DNA from: Hydrogenophaga sp.
GTDB lineage: Bacteria; Pseudomonadota; Gammaproteobacteria; Burkholderiales; Burkholderiaceae_C
Length of the DNA stretch: 64,000 bases
Direction of reading: 5' to 3'
Assembly: GCA_020723845.1 (NCBI GenBank)
Contig: DYIC01000002.1
Coordinates: 1 to 64,000 of the forward strand
Positions 4,082 through 14,048 of the stretch are shown here, one piece after another (position 1 is the stretch's first letter; each line of letters begins with the position of its first letter). Under the pieces are notes generated by a model, which was not told where the DNA came from, made no database searches, and was given only the letters and a program-made list of their open reading frames with translations. A program made the translations under genes and the position numbers.

Positions 4082-5537
4082 CGACTGCCTGCGGGACGCG
4101 CAACAGCGCTGCCACTTTGCGCTTGGGTCGGATGTACGCGGACAAACCCTTCGGCGCCGGTGCCTTGACGGGTTGTTCCCAATCCGGACGGACGTCCGGC
4201 GGCAGCGATGGCTCATAGGGCTGGTCGAGCAGCGGATCGGCGGGGGCACGGCGCGTCGACGCCGCACGCGCCGGGCGCGCGGCTGCCGGTCCAGACGTGG
4301 TCCTCTCGCGTGGCGGCTCCGCAGGAGCGGGCGCCGAGGCCGCTGCGCGCGCCCCCTCGGCACTGCGCGGCGGCCGCGCACGGGAGCGGCGCTCGTCGTC
4401 GATGTCCAGCGGCTCGACCTCGACCTTGCGGCCGATGAGTTTTTCGATCTCGGCCAGCAGACGGGCATCCTTGGCACTCACGAACGACACCGCCAACCCC
4501 GAGGCACCGGCGCGACCCGTGCGGCCGATACGGTGAACGTAATCTTCCGCGTTGAACGGGATGTCGACGTTGAACACCGCCGGCACATCCTTGATGTCGA
4601 GCCCGCGCGCGGCGACGTCGGTACACACCAACAGATCGACCTGCCCCTGCTTGAACGCGTCCAGCGCCTTGAGGCGCTCGTCCTGGCTCTTGTCGCCGTG
4701 CAGTGCGGCCACCCGCAACCCGTCGCGCTCCAACGCACGCGCCAGTCGCGCGCAGCCCAGCTTGCTGTTGACGAAGACAAACGCTTGCGTCACCTGGTGC
4801 TCGCGCAAGAGCTGCTTGAGCGCCTGGCGTTTGTCCTCTTCCTCGACGCGGAAAAAGCGTTGCTCCACGGTCGAGGCCGTGGTGTTGGCACGCGCGACCT
4901 CGATGACCACCGGGTCTTGCAGGTAGCTGGCCGCCAGGCGCTTGATCTCCGGCGAAAAGGTGGCCGAAAACAGCAACGTCGTGCGCTGCTTGGGCAGGTA
5001 CGACAAGATGCGCTGCAGATCAGGCAAAAACCCGATGTCGAGCATCCGGTCCGCCTCGTCCAGCACCACATACTCGACTTGGTTGAGTACGGCCGTCTTG
5101 GCCTCGATGTGGTCGAGCAAGCGGCCAGGCGTGGCCACCAAGACCTCTACGCCCTTGCGCAGCTCTTCCACCTGTGGCTTCATGTCCATGCCGCCGAACA
5201 CCACGGCGCAGCGCAGCGGGGTGTATTTGGCGTAGAGCTTGATCTGCTGCGCCACCTGGTCAGCCAGCTCGCGCGTGGGCAGCAGCACCAGCGCGCGCAC
5301 CGGATGGCGCGCCGGCGATGTGGAGGTGTTGGCATGGCGCAACAGCCGCTGCAGCAACGGCAGCGAAAACGCCGCCGTCTTGCCGGTGCCGGTCTGCGCG
5401 GCGCCCATGACGTCGCGCCCTTGCAGCACGACGGGAATGGCCTGCGCCTGGATGGGCGTCATCGCCGTATAGCCCATCTCGGCCACGGCGCGCGCCAGGG
5501 GATCGGCCAGATTCAATTCGGAAAAAGCGTGCGTCAT
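4032..5537 (-). CDS. rhlE: DEAD-box RNA helicase RhlE
   Basis: 501-aa ATP-dependent RNA helicase implicated in ribosome assembly and RNA turnover. Motifs appear in order: Q motif TPIQAQAIP, Walker A AQTGTGKT (47-54), PTRELADQV, DEAD within VLDEADRML, SAT, HGDKSQDERLKAL, TDVAARGLDI and HRIGRTGRAG. A basic, Pro/Ala-rich C-terminal tail of about 120 residues follows the helicase core and is typical of RhlE. The N-terminus MTHAFSELNL fits the RhlE group better than SrmB or DeaD. Its end overlaps apaH antisense by 50 bp. Confidence 0.93.
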   Translation of the reverse strand: MTHAFSELNLADPLARAVAEMGYTAMTPIQAQAIPVVLQGRDVMGAAQTGTGKTAAFSLPLLQRLLRHANTSTSPARHPVRALVLLPTRELADQVAQQIKLYAKYTPLRCAVVFGGMDMKPQVEELRKGVEVLVATPGRLLDHIEAKTAVLNQVEYVVLDEADRMLDIGFLPDLQRILSYLPKQRTTLLFSATFSPEIKRLAASYLQDPVVIEVARANTTASTVEQRFFRVEEEDKRQALKQLLREHQVTQAFVFVNSKLGCARLARALERDGLRVAALHGDKSQDERLKALDAFKQGQVDLLVCTDVAARGLDIKDVPAVFNVDIPFNAEDYVHRIGRTGRAGASGLAVSFVSAKDARLLAEIEKLIGRKVEVEPLDIDDERRSRARPPRSAEGARAAASAPAPAEPPRERTTSGPAAARPARAASTRRAPADPLLDQPYEPSLPPDVRPDWEQPVKAPAPKGLSAYIRPKRKVAALLRVPQAVASPPAPAPAPADTVSG

Positions 5538-5648
5538 CGGGCGCTATTGTCGCACCGCATCACAGGCGGCGCCAAATGCGCCATGCCATGGCGGCCGGCG
5601 CCCCCGTGGCCGATGGCTGCTGCGCAGCGACAACGTCCGGCCCACCAC

Positions 5649-6758
5649 TCAGGCGTACGATGGTGCAGGATCGCTGGTGGGGCGGCCCTGGAAGTCGGTC
5701 CAGCAGCGGCGCGTAAAGTCGTACAGCTTGCAGCGGCGTGCCGTATCGAAGTACCAGCGCCAGCTGAAGCGCTGAATGATGATGCGGCCGGGCAGCATGT
5801 CCTCCAGCTTCTTCTGGGCCTGCTTGAGCTTGTACAGCGGTACGCTCATGTCCACGTGGTGCGCCGTGTGCTCCATGATGTGGTGCATCAGCGCACCGAC
5901 GCGTAGCGGGAACTCCAGGTGCACCGTGGTGGACACGAACGGCGCCGCCTTGGCCCAGGCGGCCTTGTCGTCATGCCATTGCACGGCGGGGTGGGTGTGG
6001 TGCACGTACACCACGAAGCCGATCATCGCGTTCCAGAACACGAAGGGCACCACGAAGCCCATGACCACCTGCAGCCACACCGACTGCCCCGTGGCCAGCG
6101 CCGCCCAGACCATGCCGCCGATCCACAGCAGCCCGACGCCGAGCACGAACACGCCATCCCAGAAGAACTCAGGCCGGCGCGTGCCCATATAGGTCTTGCG
6201 CGGGAAGAACATGCGCAGCCACCACATCTCGATGAAGTAGTACAGCGCGGGGCCCCAGCCGCTGCGGTAGATACGCTCCAGCAGACGGCGGCCGGGCGAC
6301 AGCGCGTCGAACTCGGCCTTGGTCAGCGGCGCCCAGACGAAGTCCACTCCCTTGAGGTTGGTGTAGCCGTGGTGCACCACGTTGTGGCCGACCTCCCACA
6401 GGCTGTAGGGCGTCAGCGACGGAATCATCGCGATGCGACCCAGCACCTTGTTCAAGCCGCGGTGCGGCGTGTAGCTCTGGTGGCAGGCGTCGTGCCCGAT
6501 GATGAACAGCCGCCCGATGACGAAGCCCGCAGCCAACCCGCACAACAGCTTGGCCCACCACGCCTCAAACACGATCGTCCCCGCGATCAACGCCGCGAAG
6601 ATGGCCCAATCCAGCAGCAACAAGGCGATGGCGATGGCCGTGCGGCGCTCGCCGAGCGGTGTGATCCAGCTGCGGATGACCTTGCGGTGGGGCAGCGGCT
6701 GCCCCGGAGGAATGGGTTGGGACGCCTCGGGCGCGGACACGTTGGGGGTCACAGACAT
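5649..6758 (-). CDS. Acyl-lipid fatty acid desaturase
   Basis: 369-aa integral membrane di-iron desaturase that introduces a double bond into acyl chains of membrane lipids. The three histidine boxes are present: HDACHQ, HNVVHH and HHIMEHTAHH, with two pairs of hydrophobic segments between them. The sequence resembles the delta-12/omega-6 group, but regiospecificity cannot be read from sequence. The start at 6758 (MSVTPN) is chosen because the upstream open frame is antisense to the rpsT promoter region. Desaturases of this type adjust membrane fluidity with temperature. Confidence 0.88.
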   Translation of the reverse strand: MSVTPNVSAPEASQPIPPGQPLPHRKVIRSWITPLGERRTAIAIALLLLDWAIFAALIAGTIVFEAWWAKLLCGLAAGFVIGRLFIIGHDACHQSYTPHRGLNKVLGRIAMIPSLTPYSLWEVGHNVVHHGYTNLKGVDFVWAPLTKAEFDALSPGRRLLERIYRSGWGPALYYFIEMWWLRMFFPRKTYMGTRRPEFFWDGVFVLGVGLLWIGGMVWAALATGQSVWLQVVMGFVVPFVFWNAMIGFVVYVHHTHPAVQWHDDKAAWAKAAPFVSTTVHLEFPLRVGALMHHIMEHTAHHVDMSVPLYKLKQAQKKLEDMLPGRIIIQRFSWRWYFDTARRCKLYDFTRRCWTDFQGRPTSDPAPSYA

Positions 6759-6875
6759 GGCGAAATCGGAAAACGCAAACGATGGACGAACCGGATCTCG
6801 GGCGGCACGGCACGCACCGGCCACTCTCGCGATCCACGCGCGCGTCCGAGTATGCCCGAACAAGCTTGCACCCAC

Positions 6876-6916
6876 TTGACTTCGGTCAATCGATGAATGC
6901 TTGCGCTTCGGCGCAA
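6876..6916. repeat. Two tandem TTCG-loop stem-loops
   Basis: TTGAC-TTCG-GTCAA (6876-6889) and TTGCGC-TTCG-GCGCAA (6901-6916) are perfect inverted repeats. On the plus strand both would close on an exceptionally stable UUCG tetraloop. They lie between the desaturase start and the rpsT -10 element. Their role is unknown; they could end antisense transcription, bind protein, or be a small dispersed repeat. Confidence 0.5.
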
Positions 6917-6946
6917 ATGCCAGCCCCAAGAAATTCTTGCGCGCCT

Positions 6947-6970
6947 TATAATGGCGGGCTTTGCTGGCAA
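6947..6970 (+). promoter_or_regulatory. rpsT promoter -10 and conserved initial leader
   Basis: A perfect TATAAT (6947-6952) is followed by a GC-rich discriminator GGCGGG and then CTTTGCTGGCAA (6959-6970). No clear -35 is seen. The same TATAAT-N6-CTTTGCTGGCAA arrangement occurs before rpsU (12066-12089), so transcription would begin at or just before an identical 12-nt sequence in both genes. A GC-rich discriminator is typical of stringently controlled promoters. Confidence 0.7.
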
Positions 6971-6998
6971 CATCCACCAACCCCACAGGAAACGATTC

Positions 6999-7295
6999 AT
7001 GGCAAGCAAATCCAAAAAGTCCCCGCGCCTGGCCTCCGGCCGCAAGCGCGCCCGTCAAGACACCAAGCTGAACGCGCACAACAGCTCGCTGCGCTCGCGC
7101 TACCGCACCGCGATCAAGAAGGTCGAGAAGGCCGTCGCCGCTGGCGACAAGGCCCAGGCGACCGCGCTGTTCGCCCAGATGCAGTCGATCGTCGACACCA
7201 TCGCCGACAAAGGCATCTTCCACAAAAACAAGGCCGCCCGCGACAAGAGCCGCCTGTCGGCGAAGGTCAAGGCCCTGGCCACCGCTGCCGCCTGA
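6999..7295 (+). CDS. rpsT: 30S ribosomal protein bS20
   Basis: 98-aa basic primary-binding protein of the small ribosomal subunit that binds the bottom of 16S rRNA helix 44. The complete family sequence is present ([20 protein letters not shown], later [24 protein letters not shown]). The ATG at 6999 has an AGGAAA ribosome site. It is monocistronic, with its own promoter at 6947 and a terminator at 7387-7421. The 3' untranslated region contains a stem-loop antisense to the 5' leader (see 7361-7385). In E. coli bS20 is autoregulated post-transcriptionally; whether that holds here is unknown. Confidence 0.98.
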
Positions 7296-7360
7296 CGGCG
7301 ACACACCCCCCGCCCGGATGCCGGTGGCCGCCAGCCACCGCCCATCCGCCGTTTGGACCG

Positions 7361-7385
7361 GGTGCGCTGCCAGCAAAGCCGCACC
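7361..7385 (+). ncRNA. rpsT 3'-UTR stem-loop with loop antisense to rpsT/rpsU leaders
   Basis: GGTGCG (7361-7366) pairs with CGCACC (7380-7385) and exposes the 13-nt loop CTGCCAGCAAAGC. Bases 7368-7380 are the exact reverse complement of 6957-6969 in the rpsT leader. Eleven of these bases also match the rpsU leader (CUUUGCUGGCA). The hairpin is followed one base later by the rpsT terminator, so the segment has the layout of a 3'-UTR-derived regulatory RNA. A smaller hairpin GGTGGC/GCCACC (7323-7339) lies upstream. Structure is read from sequence; function is inferred. Confidence 0.5.
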
Positions 7386-7386
7386 G

Positions 7387-7421
7387 AACAGGCCGCCGAG
7401 GCGACAGCCCGGCGGCCTGTT
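7387..7421 (+). terminator. rpsT intrinsic terminator
   Basis: A perfect 12-bp stem AACAGGCCGCCG (7387-7398) / CGGCGGCCTGTT (7410-7421) with an 11-nt loop, followed by a short T stretch. It ends the rpsT transcript 92 bp after the stop codon and precedes the end of the convergent DUF3579 gene. Confidence 0.8.
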
Positions 7422-7479
7422 TCCATTGGGAGGGTCGCTCGCGCACCCGCCGCCGCGGCGCGCATCCCCCACGCCCGCG

Positions 7480-7824
7480 TCAGCGCGAACGACCCGCCGA
7501 CGACTCGGTCGACGGCGCCTCGGGCAGCAGGCACGCCTCGGTCACGACCAAGTCGTTGTCGCGCGCGAACCCCATCACGAAGTCCCATGCCCGCACGTCG
7601 TAATCGCGCAACGCCCGGTCGACGACCACGCACTTGATGCCATTGACGACGGTGGGAATCACCCACGGCGAATAGCGCAGGTGCCCGCCAGGCCCCTGGC
7701 CGGCTTGGGGATGAAACGGGCTCATGACACCCGCCAGCCGCTCGGCCCAATCGCTGGGACGAAACGTCCGGCCACTGCGGGTGACCCCCTGGATGAAGAC
7801 TTGTTGGGCGTTGGGCGTGACCAT
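7480..7824 (-). CDS. DUF3579 protein
   Basis: Small cytoplasmic protein, 114 aa from the ATG at 7824 (MVTPNAQQVFIQG). It matches the betaproteobacterial DUF3579 family, with conserved RPSDWAERLAGVM, YSPWVIP, GIKCVVVD and DFVMGFARDNDLVV blocks. No biochemical function is known to me. The rpsT-DUF3579-argD order is common in Burkholderiales. The open frame extends upstream to 7989, with a second possible ATG at 7863; conservation favours 7824. The upstream region holds the perfect palindrome TCTTATATAAGA (7941-7952) on a candidate -10. Confidence 0.82.
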   Translation of the reverse strand: MVTPNAQQVFIQGVTRSGRTFRPSDWAERLAGVMSPFHPQAGQGPGGHLRYSPWVIPTVVNGIKCVVVDRALRDYDVRAWDFVMGFARDNDLVVTEACLLPEAPSTESSAGRSR

Positions 7825-7940
7825 CGCGCTGAATGGGCCCCGTGCCGGTGGGCAAGCGGCCATGGTTGGGGTGGGCTTCGGCTCCCGCGCGGGGGCCGCG
7901 GCAACGCGAGGATCGCTCCCGTCGCCTGACAAGTATTGTA

Positions 7941-7952
7941 TCTTATATAAGA
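7941..7952. promoter_or_regulatory. Perfect 12-bp palindrome, candidate operator
   Basis: TCTTATATAAGA is an AT-rich perfect palindrome in a GC-rich intergenic region between the divergent DUF3579 gene and argD. On the minus strand TTGCCG (7967-7972) and TATAAG (7945-7950) have 16-bp spacing, so the palindrome would cover the -10 of the DUF3579 promoter. A repressor dimer, for example of the GntR family, is a plausible ligand. The regulator is not identified. Confidence 0.5.
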
Positions 7953-8050
7953 CTTGACGCACCCGACGGCAACCCCGCTGCAGAGACAAGAACTAGAATC
8001 CAGCGTTGGCCCGCTGGCATTTCTCACCCCAAATCAAAACCCGCACGCCC

Positions 8051-9247
8051 ATGAACGCTCCTGCCGAACCCCACGTGATGTCCACCTACGCCCGCGTGCC
8101 CATCATGCTGTCGCATGGGCGCGGCTGTCGTGTCTGGGACGTGGAGGGCCGCGAGTACCTCGACGCGCTGGCGGGTATCGCGGTCAACACGCTGGGCCAC
8201 GCCCACCCGCGCCTGGTCAAGGCGTTGCAAGAGCAAGTCGAGCGACTCATCCACATCAGCAACTACTACCACCACCCGCTGACCGAGCCGCTGGCCGCCG
8301 CGCTGTGCGAGCGCAGCGGGCTGGACAAGGTGTTCTTCTGCTCCACTGGGCTGGAGGCCAACGAGGCGGCGCTGAAACTCGCGCGCAAGTTCGGCCACGA
8401 CAAGGGCATCGATCGCCCCCAAATCGTCGTATACGAAAAAGCCTTCCACGGCCGCTCGATCGCCACCCTGTCGGCCACGGGCAACCCCAAGGTGCAAGCG
8501 GGCTTCGAGCCGCTGGTCGAGGGCTTTATCCGCGTGCCCATCAACGACCTTGATGCCCTGCGCGCGGCCACCGCGGGCAACCCCAACGTGGTGGCGGTGT
8601 TTTTCGAGGCGATCCAGGGCGAAGGCGGTGTCCACCCGCTGTCGCCGGAATACATGGCCGGCGTGCGCGCGCTGTGCGACGAGCACGACTGGCTGCTCAT
8701 GATCGACGAGGTTCAGTGCGGCATGGGGCGCACGGGCAAATGGTTCGCGCACCAATGGGCCGGCATCCGGCCCGATGTCATGCCGCTGGCCAAAGGGCTG
8801 GGCTCGGGTGTGCCCATCGGCGCGGTGGTTGCGGGCCCCAAGGCAGCCCACATTTTTCAGCCGGGCAACCACGGCACCACGTTCGGCGGCAACCCGCTGG
8901 CCATGCGCGCGGGGCTGGAGACGATCCGCATCATGGAAGACGAGGGGCTGCTGGACAACGCGGCCAAGGTCGGCACCCATCTGCACACCCAACTGTGGGC
9001 GGCGCTGCACGGGGTGCCGGGCGTGCGCGAGATCCGCGGCAAAGGGCTGATGCTGGGCATCGAGTTGGACCGCCCGTGCGGCGACTTGGTGCAGCGGTGT
9101 GCGCGGGCCGGCCTGTTGCTGTCGGTCACGGCCGAGCGGGTGATCCGCCTCGTGCCGCCGTTGATTCTGACGCACGCCGAAGCCGACGAAATCGTGGCCA
9201 AACTGGTGCCGCAGGTGCGGGCCTTCCTGAACGAGACGAGCGCATGA
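8051..9247 (+). CDS. argD: Acetylornithine aminotransferase
   Basis: 398-aa PLP-dependent class III aminotransferase that converts N-acetylglutamate semialdehyde and glutamate to N-acetylornithine in arginine synthesis. The PLP lysine is K248 in PLAKGLG; the cofactor-binding segments STGLEANEAALKLAR and LMIDEVQCGMGRTGKW are intact. The start at 8051 (MNAPAEPHVMSTYARVPI) is preferred over an ATG 45 bp upstream. A possible -10 TAGAAT lies at 7994-7999. The stop overlaps the argF start as ATGA, suggesting translational coupling. Confidence 0.96.
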   Translation: MNAPAEPHVMSTYARVPIMLSHGRGCRVWDVEGREYLDALAGIAVNTLGHAHPRLVKALQEQVERLIHISNYYHHPLTEPLAAALCERSGLDKVFFCSTGLEANEAALKLARKFGHDKGIDRPQIVVYEKAFHGRSIATLSATGNPKVQAGFEPLVEGFIRVPINDLDALRAATAGNPNVVAVFFEAIQGEGGVHPLSPEYMAGVRALCDEHDWLLMIDEVQCGMGRTGKWFAHQWAGIRPDVMPLAKGLGSGVPIGAVVAGPKAAHIFQPGNHGTTFGGNPLAMRAGLETIRIMEDEGLLDNAAKVGTHLHTQLWAALHGVPGVREIRGKGLMLGIELDRPCGDLVQRCARAGLLLSVTAERVIRLVPPLILTHAEADEIVAKLVPQVRAFLNETSA

Positions 9248-10191
9248 AACACTACCTGCAGTTCAAGGACTTGACCGCCGACGAATACGCGTATTTGTTC
9301 GTGCGCGCGGCGTTCGTCAAGCACAAGTTCAAGGCGGTCGAACGCTACCAGCCATTTGCCGACCCCGACCGCACGTTGGCCATGATCTTCGAGAAGGCGA
9401 GCACGCGCACGCGCGTGAGCTTCGAGGCGGGCATGTACCAGATGGGTGGCTCCGTCGTGCACCTGACCACGGGCGACAGCCAGCTTGGCCGCAGCGAGCC
9501 CATCGAGGACACCGCGCGCGTCATCAGCCGCATGGTCGACCTCGTCATGATCCGTACCTTCGAGCAAAGCAAGATCGAGCGCTTTGCCGCACACTCGCGC
9601 GTGCCCGTCATCAACGGGCTGACCAACGAGTTTCACCCCTGCCAGATCCTGGCCGATCTGTTCACCTGGCTGGAGTACCGCGGCCGACGTGCCGACGGCT
9701 CGATCGACCCCGCGGCGCTGCGCGGCATCACCGTGGCCTGGGTGGGCGACGGCAACAACATGGCCAACACCTGGCTGCAAGCGGCGCAGATTCTGGGCTT
9801 TCGCGTGCACATCAGCACGCCCCGCGGCTATGAGGTCGACCCCGCGGTGGCCGGTGTGCCGCCGGGCGACTTCTGGCAGGTGTTCGACGACCCGATGGAC
9901 GCCTGCCGTGGCGCCGACCTGGTCACCACCGACGTGTGGACGAGCATGGGCTTCGAGGCCGAAAACGAGGTGCGCAAGCAAGCGTTTGCCGCCTGGTGCG
10001 TGACCCCGGCCATGATGGCGGTGGCGAAGCCGGACGCCTTGTTCATGCACTGCCTGCCCGCCCACCGCGGCGAAGAGGTCGCGGCCGAGGTGATCGATGG
10101 ACCTCAGTCCGTCGTCTGGGACGAAGCCGAAAACCGCATGCACGTGCAAAAGGCCTTGATGGAGTATTTGCTGCTGGGCCGCCTGGCCTGA
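9244..10191 (+). CDS. argF: Ornithine carbamoyltransferase
   Basis: 315-aa cytosolic enzyme that makes citrulline from ornithine and carbamoyl phosphate. The carbamoyl-phosphate loop STRTR (53-57), HPCQ with the following LADLFT segment, and the ornithine-site HCLPAHR (H269-C270) are all present. Length is normal. It is the second gene of an argD-argF operon, overlapping argD by 4 bp. In many relatives argG follows; here a YkgJ-like gene follows instead. Confidence 0.97.
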   Translation: MKHYLQFKDLTADEYAYLFVRAAFVKHKFKAVERYQPFADPDRTLAMIFEKASTRTRVSFEAGMYQMGGSVVHLTTGDSQLGRSEPIEDTARVISRMVDLVMIRTFEQSKIERFAAHSRVPVINGLTNEFHPCQILADLFTWLEYRGRRADGSIDPAALRGITVAWVGDGNNMANTWLQAAQILGFRVHISTPRGYEVDPAVAGVPPGDFWQVFDDPMDACRGADLVTTDVWTSMGFEAENEVRKQAFAAWCVTPAMMAVAKPDALFMHCLPAHRGEEVAAEVIDGPQSVVWDEAENRMHVQKALMEYLLLGRLA

Positions 10192-10218
10192 AACACCCGT
10201 CGCCCCCATCGGACGCCC

Positions 10219-10533
10219 ATGAGCGACTGCCTGCGCTGCGGCGCGTGCTGCGCCCATTTTCGCGTCGACTTCTCCGTTTACGAAACCGCCTCGTGCGGCG
10301 GCAGTGTCCCCGATGGCTTGGTGGTGGAGGTGGCAGGTGCCACGGTGCGCATGCGCGGCACCGATCACTGGCCACCGCGCTGTGCGGCGCTGACGGGCAC
10401 ACTCGGCGAGCGCGTCGCCTGTGCCATCTACGAGTGGCGCCCGTCACCGTGCCGCGAGTTCGAGGCCGGCAGCGACGCGTGCGCGCGGGCCCGCGCGCGG
10501 CATGGCTTGCCCGCCCTGGCTGCGGACGGCTAG
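10219..10533 (+). CDS. YkgJ-like cysteine-cluster protein
   Basis: 104-aa protein of the YkgJ/FliB Zn- or Fe-S-binding cysteine-cluster group. The N-terminal CLRCGACCAHF (C4, C7, C10, C11) and the distal CREF and CARARARHG segments supply the conserved cysteines. It sits 27 bp after argF and is probably cotranscribed. The molecular role is not established. Its stop codon overlaps that of the convergent PPK2-type gene by 3 bp. Confidence 0.85.
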   Translation: MSDCLRCGACCAHFRVDFSVYETASCGGSVPDGLVVEVAGATVRMRGTDHWPPRCAALTGTLGERVACAIYEWRPSPCREFEAGSDACARARARHGLPALAADG

Positions 10534-12032
10534 ACCCCGTGCTTGCGCGGCTGCCGCTGCAACGCCGCCTCGACCTGCTGACACAGCGTGCGCAGCACCT
10601 CGATGCGTGACCACAGCTTGTCGTCCGACGCCACGATGTGCCATGGCGCCACCCGGGTCGAGGTGCGATCCACCATGTCCTGCACCGCGCGCTCGTAGGC
10701 GGGCCACTTTTCCCGGTTGCGCCAATCCTCGGGGGTGATCTTGAACTGCTTGTGCGGTGTCGTCTCGCGCTCGCGAAAGCGCCGAAGCTGCTCCTCAGGC
10801 GTGATGGCCAGCCAGAACTTGACGATGATCACGCCCGCCTCGGCCAGCTCCTCCTCGTAGGCATTGATCTCGCCGTAAGCGCGCATCCAGTCGGCCTCGC
10901 TGCAAAAGCCCTCCACCCGCTCCACCAATACCCGGCCGTACCAGGAGCGGTCGAAGATGACCGCCCGACCATGGGGCGGAATGTAGCGCCAGAAGCGCCA
11001 CAGATAGGGCTGGGCGCGCTCGTTTTCGTTCGGCGCGGCCACCGGCACCACCCGATAAAAGCGTGCATCGAGCGCTTGCGTGATGCGCCGGATGGTGCTG
11101 CCCTTGCCCGCCGCGTCCATGCCTTCGAACACCACCACCAGCGAGCGCTCGCGCAGGCGCGCGTCGCGGCTGAGCAGATTCAAGCGGCTCTGCCAGCGCT
11201 CGAGCAACCGGTCGTAGCGCTCGCGCGGCAGGCGCCGGCTGTAGTCTTGCGCCCGCAGCAACGTCACGTCATCCGTGCCCGTCTCGATCACGCTGGGCGG
11301 CAGGGGCGGCGTGGGCGGGGCTGGCTTGGCCGTGTGCTGCAGCACCGACAGCAGATGCCGCCCGGCGGTCAGCTCGCGATAGCACACGTCACTGCCCTCG
11401 ATCACGATCCAGGGTGCCTCGCCCAGGCTTGTCTTGCGCAACGCTTCGTCGCTGGCCTCGATGAATTCGTCGTAGTGCTTCAGGTGCTCGCGCTCGCGCG
11501 GGCCAATGCGCCACGCCGTGCGAGGGTCGGCCGCCAAATCCTTCAAGCGCCGCCTGGCTGCTTTCTTGGACAGATGGAACCAGAACTTGACCAGCACCAC
11601 CCCCTCGGCCACCAGCATGCGCTCGAACTGGCGAATGCGCTCGAGCCGGTGCACAAACCGGTCGGCGTCGTCGTCACCCATCACCCGTGCTAGGATGGGG
11701 TCGGTGTACCATGAGCCGAACAGCATGGCGATGCGCCCTTTGGGCGGCAACACCTGCCAAAAGCGCCACATCTCGGGCCAGCGGCGCTCCTCCGGCGTCA
11801 TGGCATCGAACGCCTCCGTGCGGATGTGGCGCGGGTCCATCCAGGCATTGAGCGTGTTGACCGTCTCGCTGCGCCCTGCCCCATCGACACCGTTGATGAG
11901 CACCACCACCGCCCGATCGGCACGGCGCAACAGCTCATATTGGGCGTCGAGCAATGCGGCGCGCAAGGCCGGCACCTCTGCCTTGTAGGTCGCGCGATCG
12001 ATGCGGTGACCGATCTCGGCCGAATCGAACAT
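10530..12032 (-). CDS. pap: Polyphosphate:AMP phosphotransferase (two-domain PPK2, class II)
   Basis: 500-aa enzyme made of two tandem PPK2 domains. It transfers phosphate from polyphosphate to AMP, making ADP. The N-terminal domain (about 1-240) has a degenerate P-loop, GVDGAGRSE. The C-terminal domain (about 270-500) has an intact GMDAAGKGST and the lid/Walker B region VIFDRSWYGRVLVERV. This pairing of an inactive and an active half is normal for class II PPK2. The start at 12032 has a strong GAGGAGGG ribosome site. It diverges from rpsU across 170 bp. Confidence 0.92.
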   Translation of the reverse strand: MFDSAEIGHRIDRATYKAEVPALRAALLDAQYELLRRADRAVVVLINGVDGAGRSETVNTLNAWMDPRHIRTEAFDAMTPEERRWPEMWRFWQVLPPKGRIAMLFGSWYTDPILARVMGDDDADRFVHRLERIRQFERMLVAEGVVLVKFWFHLSKKAARRRLKDLAADPRTAWRIGPREREHLKHYDEFIEASDEALRKTSLGEAPWIVIEGSDVCYRELTAGRHLLSVLQHTAKPAPPTPPLPPSVIETGTDDVTLLRAQDYSRRLPRERYDRLLERWQSRLNLLSRDARLRERSLVVVFEGMDAAGKGSTIRRITQALDARFYRVVPVAAPNENERAQPYLWRFWRYIPPHGRAVIFDRSWYGRVLVERVEGFCSEADWMRAYGEINAYEEELAEAGVIIVKFWLAITPEEQLRRFRERETTPHKQFKITPEDWRNREKWPAYERAVQDMVDRTSTRVAPWHIVASDDKLWSRIEVLRTLCQQVEAALQRQPRKHGV

Positions 12033-12065
12033 CCTCGAGCCCTCCTCTGCCCAAATGGATCTTGC

Positions 12066-12202
12066 TATAATACTGGTCTTTGCTGGCAAAGCCTCGTCTG
12101 CCGTGATCACCTTGTCGACGAGGAACCCTTGCCAGGCAAGCCCCGTCGGGTCTGATCTTCCCCACGTGCGGCCCCTGGCGCACTTTCGGAAACCATTGGC
12201 CA
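12066..12202 (+). promoter_or_regulatory. rpsU promoter and structured ~125-nt leader
   Basis: An extended -10, TGCTATAAT (TATAAT at 12066-12071), precedes CTTTGCTGGCAA (12078-12089), the block shared with rpsT at the same 6-nt spacing. The leader can form CTTTG-CTGG-CAAAG (12078-12091), a 7-bp inverted repeat CCTCGTC/GACGAGG (12092-12098 with 12117-12123) and CTTGCC-A-GGCAAG (12128-12140). Only a weak ribosome site precedes the rpsU ATG. A long folded leader suggests post-transcriptional control, possibly by bS21 itself. Confidence 0.6.
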
Positions 12203-12415
12203 ATGACCACCATCCGCGTTAAAGACAACGAACCGTTCGACGTCGCCCTGCGCCGCTTCAAGCGCACGATCGAAAAGCTGGGCCTGCTCAACGAGCTGCG
12301 CGCCCGCGAGTTCTACGAAAAGCCCACCGCCGAGCGCAAGCGCAAAAAGGCAGCCGCTATCAAGCGCCACCTCAAGCGTGTGCGCTCGCAACAGCTGCCG
12401 CAGCGCCTGTACTGA
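12203..12415 (+). CDS. rpsU: 30S ribosomal protein bS21
   Basis: 70-aa highly basic small-subunit protein near the anti-Shine-Dalgarno end of 16S rRNA. The family core is complete: [34 protein letters not shown] and a basic C-terminal helix. bS21 helps mRNA engagement during initiation. It lies upstream of yqeY, as in many proteobacteria, but the usual dnaG-rpoD genes do not follow. A hairpin at 12452-12481 separates it from yqeY. Confidence 0.97.
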
Positions 12416-12451
12416 ACGGGGCGCCACCCCACTCGGCTTGCGCCGACCCCC

Positions 12452-12481
12452 AAGCCCGCCCGAGGACGCTCCGGCGGGCTT
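12452..12481 (+). terminator. Hairpin between rpsU and yqeY
   Basis: AAGCCCGCC (12452-12460) and GGCGGGCTT (12473-12481) form a perfect 9-bp stem with a 12-nt loop. The following TTGCGTATT is only weakly T-rich, so this may be an attenuating rather than a full terminator between rpsU and yqeY. Confidence 0.55.
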
Positions 12482-12522
12482 GCGTATTGGTATCGACACC
12501 GCTGATACGGAGCGACCCTGCC

Positions 12523-12984
12523 ATGTCTATGAAAGACCGCATCACCGACGACATGAAAGCCGCCATGCGCGCCAAAGACAGCGCGCGCCTGGGCGCCATC
12601 CGACTGCTGCTGGCCGCCATCAAGCAGAAGGAAGTGGACGAGCGCACCACGCTGGATGACGCCGGCGTCGTCGCGGTGGTGGACAAGTTGCTCAAGCAGC
12701 GCCGCGACTCGATAGCCGCCTACGAACAAGCAGGCCGCACCGATCTGGCGGACCAAGAACGCGCCGAAGCCGCCGTGCTGGAAGCCTATCTGCCCGCACG
12801 ACTGGATGCCGCGGCGATTGCCGCCGCCGTCCAGAACATCGTCGCCCGTGTCGCGGCCGATTTGGGCCGCGCGCCCACGCCCACGGACATGGGCAAAGTC
12901 ATGGCGCTGGCCAAAGCCGAGCTCGCCGGGCAGGCCGACATGGCGCAGGTATCCGCTGCGGTCAAGGGCGCGCTGGCTGGCTGA
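12523..12984 (+). CDS. YqeY/GatB-tail domain protein
   Basis: 153-aa cytoplasmic helical protein of the YqeY family, related to the tail domain of the GatB amidotransferase subunit. Conserved segments are MKDRITDDMKAAMRAKD, LGAIRLLLAAIK and LPTDMGKVMA-like TPTDMGKVMALAK. It may bind RNA or tRNA, but no function is proven. The start at 12523 is preceded by GGAG; the ATG at 12529 is an alternative. It lies between rpsU and murI and is read in the same direction. Confidence 0.88.
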   Translation: MSMKDRITDDMKAAMRAKDSARLGAIRLLLAAIKQKEVDERTTLDDAGVVAVVDKLLKQRRDSIAAYEQAGRTDLADQERAEAAVLEAYLPARLDAAAIAAAVQNIVARVAADLGRAPTPTDMGKVMALAKAELAGQADMAQVSAAVKGALAG

Positions 12985-13005
12985 ACCGCCCGCCCCCCAC
13001 CGTCC

Positions 13006-13842
13006 ATGACGACGGCTCCCGACCTCGCGCCCGCCGAGGCCCCGATTGGCGTCTTCGACTCCGGCGTCGGTGGCTTGTCGGTACTGCGCGAAATCCACCG
13101 CCTGCTGCCCGGCGAAGACCTCATCTACGTCGCCGACTCGGGCCATGCGCCCTATGGCGACAAGCCTCCAGCTTTCGTACAGGCGCGGGCTGAACACATC
13201 CTGCGGCAACTGCGGCGTGCGGGGTGCAAGGCGGTCGTGGTGGCCTGCAACACCGTCACGGGCCTGTCCATTCAGGCCCTGCGCGCGCAGCACCCCGGGT
13301 GGCCATTGGTGGCCATCGAGCCGGCCGTCAAACCCGCGGCTGCGCTGACGCGCAGCGGCGTCATTGGCGTGCTGGCCACGCGCAACACGGTCGCCAGCCC
13401 AGGGCTGACCCGCCTCATCGCCGAGTACGCGGCGGGTGTGCAGGTACTGCGCCAAGCCTGTCCCGGCTGGGTCGAGCGCGTCGAGCGCGGCGAACTGGAC
13501 GGTCCCGATACCGAAGCGGCCGTGGCCGACCGCGTGCAACCGCTGCTGGATGCCGGTGCCGACGTCCTGGTGCTAGGCTGCACCCACTACCCGTTCTTGC
13601 TGCCCGTCATTCAACGCATCGCGGGTCCGTCCGTCGCGATCCTCGACCCCGCCCCCGCCGTGGCGCGTGAACTGGCGCGCCGGCTGACCGAAGCCGGGCT
13701 ACTCAACTCCCGCCCACGAGGGGGAATGGTGCGCTTTTGGACCAGCGGGGACCTCACGCAGACCGGCACTGTGATCGCCCGGCTGTGGGGCAGCGACACA
13801 CAGCCCGAGCGCTTGGTGGGGGAGAATACGGCCGAGCCCTGA
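13006..13842 (+). CDS. murI: Glutamate racemase
   Basis: 278-aa enzyme that interconverts L- and D-glutamate and supplies D-Glu to peptidoglycan. The two catalytic cysteines are C81 in VACNTVTG and C192 in LGCTHYPFLL; the N-terminal GVFDSGVGGLSVLREI is typical. The motif after the first cysteine (TVTG) differs slightly from the common TASA but keeps the Cys-Asn-Thr. It starts 21 bp after yqeY and is probably cotranscribed. Confidence 0.95.
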   Translation: MTTAPDLAPAEAPIGVFDSGVGGLSVLREIHRLLPGEDLIYVADSGHAPYGDKPPAFVQARAEHILRQLRRAGCKAVVVACNTVTGLSIQALRAQHPGWPLVAIEPAVKPAAALTRSGVIGVLATRNTVASPGLTRLIAEYAAGVQVLRQACPGWVERVERGELDGPDTEAAVADRVQPLLDAGADVLVLGCTHYPFLLPVIQRIAGPSVAILDPAPAVARELARRLTEAGLLNSRPRGGMVRFWTSGDLTQTGTVIARLWGSDTQPERLVGENTAEP

Positions 13843-13924
13843 GCGGATCTTTCTGGGATCTGACCTTCACGGCAGCAACCAATTCACCCGGGTAAACAGG
13901 GCGTCGGTCACAGCTTGGACACGC

Positions 13925-13945
13925 AAGAAACCCGCAGCCGACGGG
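13925..13945 (-). terminator. Possible tRNA-Lys terminator
   Basis: On the minus strand CCCGT and GCGGG form a short stem (one G-U pair) followed by TTTCTT, about 30 bp downstream of the tRNA 3' end. The stem is short, so the call is tentative. The 130 bp between murI and the tRNA hold nothing else I recognise. Confidence 0.4.
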
Positions 13946-13972
13946 AAACGTTGCGCAACCCTATGATATCGT

Positions 13973-14048
13973 TGGTGGGTCGTGCAGGATTCGAACCTGC
14001 GACCAACGGATTAAAAGTCCGCTGCTCTACCGACTGAGCTAACGACCC
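13973..14048 (-). tRNA. tRNA-Lys (UUU)
   Basis: Complete cloverleaf of 76 nt including an encoded CCA end. The acceptor stem pairs GGGTCGT with ACGACCC, the anticodon loop CTTTTAA gives anticodon UUU, and the T arm reads GGTTCGAATCC. A TATAAT -10 element lies upstream at 14091-14096 on the same strand, preceded by TGC as an extended -10, giving a short leader of about 35 nt. Confidence 0.97.

Follow-up and report, generated by a model that had tools for sequence, protein, structure and literature searches.

The window, a 64,000-nucleotide stretch of Hydrogenophaga sp. DNA that lies within a 2.27-Mb assembly, carries the small ribosomal protein genes rpsT and rpsU. Its rpsT message is approximately 470 nt long, and both of its untranslated ends contain segments that could pair with one another. 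The start of this message can be estimated from C. metallidurans, where mapped transcription start sites place the beginning of the −10 element of 48 housekeeping promoters, rpsT among them, at −11.7 ± 0.9 (PMC9045368). On the spacing given in that report the window's rpsT transcript would start at about 6957–6960, so that the 5′ pairing arm would lie approximately at the start of the message. A search of window positions 5000–14000 against Rfam 15 at gathering score returned no matches; a model of long-range pairing is not expected in Rfam. The features of the locus are listed below; class A is a sequence class of relatives defined further on.

6947–6952, + strand: −10 element of the rpsT promoter, TATAAT, read from the sequence
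6957–6969, + strand: 5′ arm of helix 1, GGCUUUGCUGGCA, at the expected transcript start; perfect complement of 7368–7380, covarying in relatives
6971–6975, + strand: predicted 5′ arm of helix 2, CAUCC, following A6970, which forms the one-base side of a 1×3 internal loop (duplex prediction)
6977–6980, + strand: predicted 5′ arm of helix 3, CCAA (CARAC in many class A leaders; duplex prediction and local complementarity traces)
6987–6990, + strand: Shine-Dalgarno (SD)-like AGGA of rpsT, outside the helices (sequence read; an SD-like 4-mer is present in 105 of 110 class A loci)
6999–7295, + strand: rpsT, ribosomal protein bS20 (Pfam PF01649, S20, E = 1.1e-27)
7316–7347, + strand: predicted 3′UTR hairpin between the rpsT stop codon and the pairing segment, outer stem GGAUG/CAUCC, inner stem GGUGGC/GCCACC (minimum-energy fold of the whole mRNA)
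7353–7356, + strand: predicted 3′ arm of helix 3, UUGG, inside the UTR motif GCCGUUUG (duplex prediction; motif present in relatives)
7360–7364, + strand: predicted 3′ arm of helix 2, GGGUG (duplex prediction; per-pair counts in relatives)
7361–7385, + strand: alternative local hairpin GGUGCG/CGCACC (−12.8 kcal/mol), which would compete with the end pairing
7365–7367, + strand: three-base side of the predicted internal loop, CGC, invariant across class A, which in part reflects use of the motif to locate the UTR segment
7368–7380, + strand: 3′ arm of helix 1, UGCCAGCAAAGCC, perfect complement of 6957–6969 with compensatory changes in relatives
7386–7422, + strand: rpsT terminator hairpin with a weak U tract (predicted fold and sequence; not called by a run-of-four-T rule)
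12078–12088, + strand: rpsU leader match, CUUUGCUGGCA, judged to be shared start-of-transcript sequence and not a partner, as it shows no co-adaptation with the rpsT 3′UTR
12203–12415: rpsU (Pfam S21); the leader match is on the + strand

Direct reading of the sequence confirms both complementarities that had been described in the original prediction. The segment 7368–7380 (TGCCAGCAAAGCC) is the exact reverse complement of 6957–6969 (GGCTTTGCTGGCA) in the rpsT leader, and 11 of its bases match 12078–12088 (CTTTGCTGGCA) in the rpsU leader. The hairpin reported there is likewise present, with the stem GGTGCG at 7361–7366 and CGCACC at 7380–7385, a 13-nt loop at 7367–7379 and a local folding energy of −12.8 kcal/mol; the terminator hairpin starts at 7386, right after the stem. 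Duplex prediction carries the pairing of the two rpsT ends past these 13 bp. Across the 1×3 internal loop, CAUCC at 6971–6975 would pair with GGGUG at 7360–7364, and CCAA at 6977–6980 with UUGG at 7353–7356, giving three helices of 13, 5 and 4 bp between the 5′UTR and the 3′UTR and a predicted energy of −36.1 kcal/mol for the whole duplex. The predicted fold of the whole mRNA includes this 5′–3′ contact, its 13 pairs having a mean pair probability of 0.94.

An exposed hairpin loop had been put forward as the design of the element, a feature that proves not to be general. A self-hairpin of at least 5 bp that closes the arm is found in 3 of 107 class A loci, the window included. The GGTGCG/CGCACC hairpin is nearly confined to the window's species and was rejected as a conserved element.

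Taken by itself, the match in the window's genome is modest. The 13-bp helix scores 34.0, close to the 99th percentile (34.5) of a background consisting of the best helix between the 60 nt upstream and the 120 nt downstream of each of 768 ORFs in 74 related loci (mean 21.4, sd 4.3, 95th percentile 29.5). In this longest-helix test the rpsT genes of relatives have a mean of 26.1; 15 of 74 pass the 95th percentile, no locus passes the 99th, and rpsT is the top gene in 34 of the 74 loci. The assembly holds 12 copies of CTTTGCTGGC and two of a reversed control. Of these 12 sites, those in the leaders of rpsT and rpsU alone have a TATAAT at the right upstream distance, with 6 of 6 bases matching, and none of the remaining sites reaches more than 3 of 6. 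Whole-duplex energies over 70 × 120 nt were also tried and dropped, as spurious pairs in GC-rich sequence and terminators dominated them; they were replaced with ungapped helix scores in the region before the terminator. Because longest-helix scores give just a modest excess over background ORFs, the claim rests on co-evolution, and it is the comparison among relatives that argues for more than chance.

For this comparison 200 rpsT loci were parsed, of which 4 incomplete loci (truncated or without a start codon) and 5 duplicates were removed, leaving 191. A −10 element was called in 180 of these, 11 having no call, and one further locus with too short a leader was dropped, so that 179 were used. 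The window's GTDB family, or organisms named Comamonadaceae and similar, accounts for 170 of the 179; Tepidimonas, Comamonas, Acidovorax, Variovorax, Hydrogenophaga, Ramlibacter, and Limnohabitans are among the named relatives sampled. In 14 of the 170 family loci no terminator was called, and these are absent from the percentile and ensemble counts (n = 156). The window's own locus (L014) is one of them because its U tract is too short for the terminator rule. At 7386–7425 the window has a strong stem followed by a weak U tract (UUUCC), while many relatives have long U runs.

Family loci were sorted into three sequence classes. Class A comprises 110 loci, including named Comamonadaceae, with a typical leader GGCUUUGCUGRCA-W-CAUCC and a typical 3′UTR GGGUG-CGC-UGYCAGCAAAGC; three of its loci (L180, L182, and L233) are counted here merely since the class motif occurs past their terminator. 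The class A 3′UTR usually has GUUUG ahead of GGGUG, and GUUUG can pair with CARAC of the leader. Class B consists of 26 loci, with a typical leader CUUUGCACCA-W-CUGG and 3′UTR CCAG-nnn-UGGUGCAAAG. Class C is mixed and holds 34 family loci, the count of 43 at classification having included 9 loci from other families. Examples of class C arms are UUUGCUCAACCCG / CGGGUUGAGCAA at L177, GCUUUUCCACCGG / CCGGUGGAAAAGC at L189, and GAGCAGGCAA / UUGCCUGCUC at L231. Wholly different arm sequences are found in the same layout across classes and lineages, as class B, L177 and L189 illustrate. Loci with a continuous helix lack the 1×3 internal loop.

The two ends of the message change together. Among 52 disjoint pairs of closest relatives within the family whose 5′ ends differ, the own partner pairs better in 30, worse in 4 and equally well in 18 (p = 3e-6); with other families added, the counts are 30 better, 6 worse, and 18 ties. 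Five controls subjected to the same statistic were not significant: the reversed UTR (18:24), the start of the coding sequence (17:11), the region past the terminator (26:19), upstream DNA against the UTR (22:22), and the end of the coding sequence (25:14), the last of which comes near significance (p = 0.054). Within class A, 105 loci anchored on the internal loop yielded 67 distinct sequences. These contain 100 double-changed cells, part of which reflect a one-base deletion in both arms of one group, against 31 ± 7 on whole-UTR shuffling, and none of 500 shuffles reached 100. A MAFFT alignment of 36 sequences, picked for variety out of the 67, shows 10 of 17 pairs altered on both sides and 41 double-changed cells against 13.1 ± 4.6 (0 of 500 shuffles). 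In this alignment 91.9% of cells are paired, compared with no more than 50.4% after sliding of the partner, and the value rises to 98.9% for the 5′ arm of helix 2 (CAUCC). Of the 67 distinct class A sequences, 65 retain a central U-G wobble in helix 2. Class B adds little covariation (own partners 23.1, other class B partners 22.8), as would be expected of a class sharing one sequence; it differs from class A as a block.

Covariation between the loop segment and the rpsT leader had been suggested as a check, and the rpsT part of the original prediction passes it (30:4 with 18 ties; 0 of 500 shuffles). The cis contact between the 5′ and 3′ ends of rpsT mRNA that was also envisaged gains support from this covariation and from the whole-mRNA fold, although the comparison as such does not separate intramolecular from intermolecular contact. 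Taken together, the sequence comparisons indicate that the end pairing is very probably under selection as RNA.

Pairing strength was evaluated between the first 25 nt of the transcript and the last 45 nt before the terminator, with cross-class partners as the null. Of 156 family loci, 137 have an own-partner score above the 95th percentile of the null and 125 a score above the 99th; the 95th percentile is passed by 103 of 107 class A, 22 of 24 class B, and 12 of 25 class C loci. Predicted ensembles of the full-length mRNA give a similar picture. When contact is defined as at least 30% of the first 25 nt being paired into the pre-terminator segment, it is predicted in 143 of 156 loci (A, 104/107; B, 23/24; C, 16/25), compared with 36 of 312 when the 3′UTR is taken from another class. 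The contrast is weaker for class C swaps (14 of 50), and support in class C is weaker by both the percentile and the ensemble measure. In most sampled family members the first 12–25 nt or so of the rpsT transcript is thus predicted to be able to pair with the stretch before the terminator.

The position of the arms is also regular. In the 125 loci with a helix above the 99th percentile of the null, the 5′ arm starts 5–8 nt past the −10 element in 98, and the 3′ arm ends at most 10 bases from the terminator stem in 103. A −10 element followed by a CUUU-like pattern is present in 166 of the 200 parsed rpsT loci, a set that includes duplicates and other families, with exactly 6 bases between the two in 160 of the 166. 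Nineteen of the 156 family loci lie at or below the 95th percentile of the null. Some of the low scores are scoring failures, caused by bulged helices (L108 and L120) or by a miscalled −10 (L191), whereas at L218, L222, L224, and L226 pairing is not visible.

Beyond the GTDB family the end pairing is essentially absent from the loci tested. For the 29 class-level loci from other orders, own and swapped partners score alike (16.3 and 16.1), and 2 of 29 pass the 95th percentile. Among 48 loci that represent the order's other families 26 were testable, and again own partners (12.4) resemble swapped ones (12.0), with one locus above the threshold. This locus (L309; family f3, genome G365) has a possible end pairing of CUGCCCA with UGGGCAG and is the lone such case among testable order-level loci outside the family.

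The leading proposal, which we favor by a slight margin over its being wrong, is that rpsT mRNA in this family forms a closed loop by pairing its ends and keeps its 5′ end hidden from decay, in the manner of Bacillus subtilis hbs. The first 12–25 nt, which start no more than one or two bases from where transcription is expected to begin, would pair with the segment just upstream of the terminator, so that both ends of the message are brought into one helix beside the terminator hairpin. Most likely this contact forms in cis, inside one molecule. A paired 5′ end may then be hidden from the 5′-end-sensing route of decay that involves RppH and RNase E, a step about as probable as its opposite, and the message would be long-lived until opened by ribosomes or nucleases. 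The longer life is suggested by analogy with E. coli rpsT mRNA, for which pairing of the extreme 5′ end, a 5′ stem-loop or circularization gives protection against RNase E, and whose half-life is approximately fourfold longer without RppH (Mackie and co-workers, as described in PMC2948425). By that analogy the end pairing probably shields the message from decay. The gene is the same and a hidden 5′ end is protective, but the circularized and 5′-paired E. coli RNAs described in that work are laboratory forms, whereas here the native sequence itself appears to pair.

Contacts between the two ends of one bacterial mRNA have been described in a few cases. In hbs of B. subtilis, a 14-nt contact between the 5′UTR and the 3′UTR protects the mRNA from an endonuclease (Braun et al., 2017, as cited in the review PMC7821165). 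The ends of one mRNA also pair in rpsT, where protection is proposed by analogy. The hbs system differs in belonging to Bacillus and involving RNase Y, while rpsT is a ribosomal-protein mRNA of Pseudomonadota; according to the same review the hbs 3′UTR is not conserved in close relatives, in contrast to the family-wide compensatory change in rpsT. The icaR mRNA of Staphylococcus aureus also pairs its 3′UTR with its own 5′UTR, and whether it does so in cis or in trans is left undecided there too (PMC3868564). Its pairing masks the SD region, blocks translation and feeds RNase III; the window's rpsT instead pairs its extreme 5′ end and leaves the SD free. The features that mark cis pairing of the hbs and icaR kind, complementarity and, as a stand-in, compensatory change, are both present in rpsT. 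RNAIII of S. aureus provides another long-range end-to-end contact in a short coding RNA, although it is a dual-function regulatory RNA and the contact spans about seven bases (PMC7821165).

The 2021 review names RNAIII, icaR, and hbs as mRNAs whose 3′UTR contacts their own 5′UTR and leaves application to other bacterial genes open (PMC7821165). A 2025 map of cleavage sites in B. subtilis calls long-range mRNA pairing common in that organism (PMC11780869). Among the open-licence matches listed for rpsT and rpsU leaders, rpsT sRNAs, RNase E, chimeras, and bacterial 5′–3′ UTR contacts, the element is not described in the text retrieved. On comparative sequence grounds, the rpsT end pairing is a real, selected, family-wide element of a rarely described kind, and the rpsU part is unsupported. 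The published bacterial 5′–3′ contacts found (hbs, icaR, and RNAIII) are single cases from Bacillus and Staphylococcus in the sources as available, to which rpsT adds a Pseudomonadota case with family-wide compensatory evolution. The mRNA is of further relevance as it has been a test substrate for the 5′-end dependence of RNase E (PMC2948425), and its natural variants with quite different helices form a ready set for compensatory tests. Screens for mRNAs with co-evolving ends could reveal more closed-loop messages.

The helix may alternatively act on translation, as an operator, possibly bound by bS20, or as a gate for the ribosome that represses initiation, or aids it in lineages without an SD. 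We consider this unlikely for the family as a whole. One point in its favor is the distribution of SD-like 4-mers, which occur in 1 of 26 class B and 5 of 34 class C loci compared with 105 of 110 class A loci and 26 of 29 loci from other orders. Median distances of the helix-1 arms to the AUG and to the stop codon are 18 and 11 nt in class B (18 loci) and 13 and 7 nt in class C (11 loci), and the helix would bring the stop codon near the AUG. Because the arms lie near both codons, a role in translation is at least as plausible in these two classes. In E. coli, autoregulation by bS20 is unproven, having been neither confirmed nor refuted, and the regulation of rpsU is described as unknown (PMC10931766). 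Against this reading, families of the order without pairing are SD-poor as well, with the 4-mer in 21 of 48 loci in a set with less careful start-codon assignment and in 6 of 9 in another count. Loss of the SD is therefore not tied to the helix. In class A neither the SD nor the AUG is covered by helix 1, whose arm is a median of 28 nt from the AUG, and the 4-mer is nearly always present. The window's AGGA (6987–6990) is clear of the helices, whose 5′ arms end at 6980, so that masking of the icaR type does not apply. Furthermore, loci with a continuous helix do without the 1×3 internal loop, and a shared protein-binding shape beyond the pairing is not evident.

A second alternative places the action in trans. 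RNase E would cut a short 3′-end RNA from rpsT mRNA, which would pair with the 5′ ends of other rpsT molecules and exert negative feedback on bS20, as OppZ and CarZ do for their operons. This is doubtful, although identical complementarity and covariation would be predicted, the 3′ arm in class A sits between an upstream hairpin and the terminator, and autoregulatory 3′UTR-derived sRNAs are established (PMC7398697). In OppZ and CarZ, as in rpsT, a 3′-end sequence is complementary to the transcript it comes from. They are processed sRNAs acting in trans as described there, whereas rpsT is known here from its sequence and its 3′UTRs are very short in classes B and C. The distance from stop codon to terminator has a median of approximately 26 nt in these classes, which leaves little room for a separate sRNA, and the class A arm is aimed at the extreme 5′ end rather than at the ribosome-binding site.

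Nor does a search for further targets point to a trans-acting RNA, as no other clear leader target was seen. Among the 12 CTTTGCTGGC sites in the window's genome, a convincing leader target beyond rpsT and rpsU was not found. Four class B genomes contain 48 sites of the corresponding CTTTGCACCA, and the 30 loci that were read did not include a convincing further leader target; among them a −10-like match of at least 4 of 6 bases is found solely at rpsT (L300 and L301) and, as the one exception, at L283. An ORF test on these sites is non-discriminating in GC-rich DNA. One site seen by eye in a class B genome (L286, near position 1500; G108) lies approximately 10 nt after an apparent ATG and may be an additional target for the 3′ arm of rpsT.

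Lineages without an SD allow a more specific reading, in which the end helix would hold the stop codon by the start codon and hand the finishing ribosome back to the start. It is improbable, slightly more so given that rpsT leaders poor in SD sequences are also found where families of the order lack the pairing. If true, such a ribosome-recycling helix would constitute a base-paired bacterial closed loop on a ribosomal-protein mRNA that replaces SD-led initiation. The loci concerned (L042, L043, and L174–L241; classes B and C) have rpsT leaders of approximately 30 nt, an SD-like 4-mer in 6 of 60, and end pairing.

The original prediction further suggested that the rpsT 3′ arm regulates rpsU in trans, linking bS20 to bS21. 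In its favor, the match spans 11 nt, and in the window's genome the rpsT 3′UTR and rpsU are predicted to form a duplex of −34.0 kcal/mol, which makes the pairing thermodynamically possible within the window's genus. The comparison argues in the other direction. Across 29 genomes the rpsU leader matches the rpsT 3′UTR of its own genome no better than that of others (means of 19.7 and 19.6), while the rpsT leader clearly prefers its own (23.2 compared with 18.5). Two genomes (G017 and G023) have rpsT of the CTTTGCACC type, yet their rpsU leaders keep CTTTGCTGGCAAACC, and CUUUGCUGGCAAA(C) is kept in most rpsU leaders examined regardless of the rpsT 3′UTR. With no co-adaptation between the two, the proposed link is not supported, and we regard regulation of rpsU by the rpsT 3′ arm as highly improbable.

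Instead, the part shared by rpsT and rpsU is best explained, from the sequences compared, as a common start-of-transcript sequence, because a −10 element followed at the same distance by CUUU is also found at rpmE and CUUU starts the unpaired rpsT of several relatives. In the window's genome the rpmE leader (L247, 1501–1835) begins with GCUUUGC shortly after TATAAT, like those of rpsT and rpsU; clear end pairing was not seen there by eye.

Finally, it is hardly conceivable that the complementarity has no RNA function and arises in the DNA, as an inverted repeat that gene conversion keeps alike, or by chance combined with a shared promoter start: the CUUU first bases may be kept for other reasons and significance in a single genome is modest, but the U-G wobble (65 of 67 class A sequences) and the unequal internal loop persist, the same-leader controls fail, and nearly all tested loci outside the family are unpaired although CUUU is often there.

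A table of ribosomal leader candidates includes a leader upstream of rpsT in Deltaproteobacteria, labelled L20 (PMC7247131, as tabulated). The rpsU leader of the window (12077–12202) is a candidate bS21 leader that looks like a conserved structured RNA without an Rfam match. A second stem in it, like CCCCGUC/GACGGGG, is visible by eye and absent from the computed consensus. In that consensus of 17 aligned rpsU leaders, the stem around the loop GGCCYGAUCUUCC changes on both sides at several pairs.
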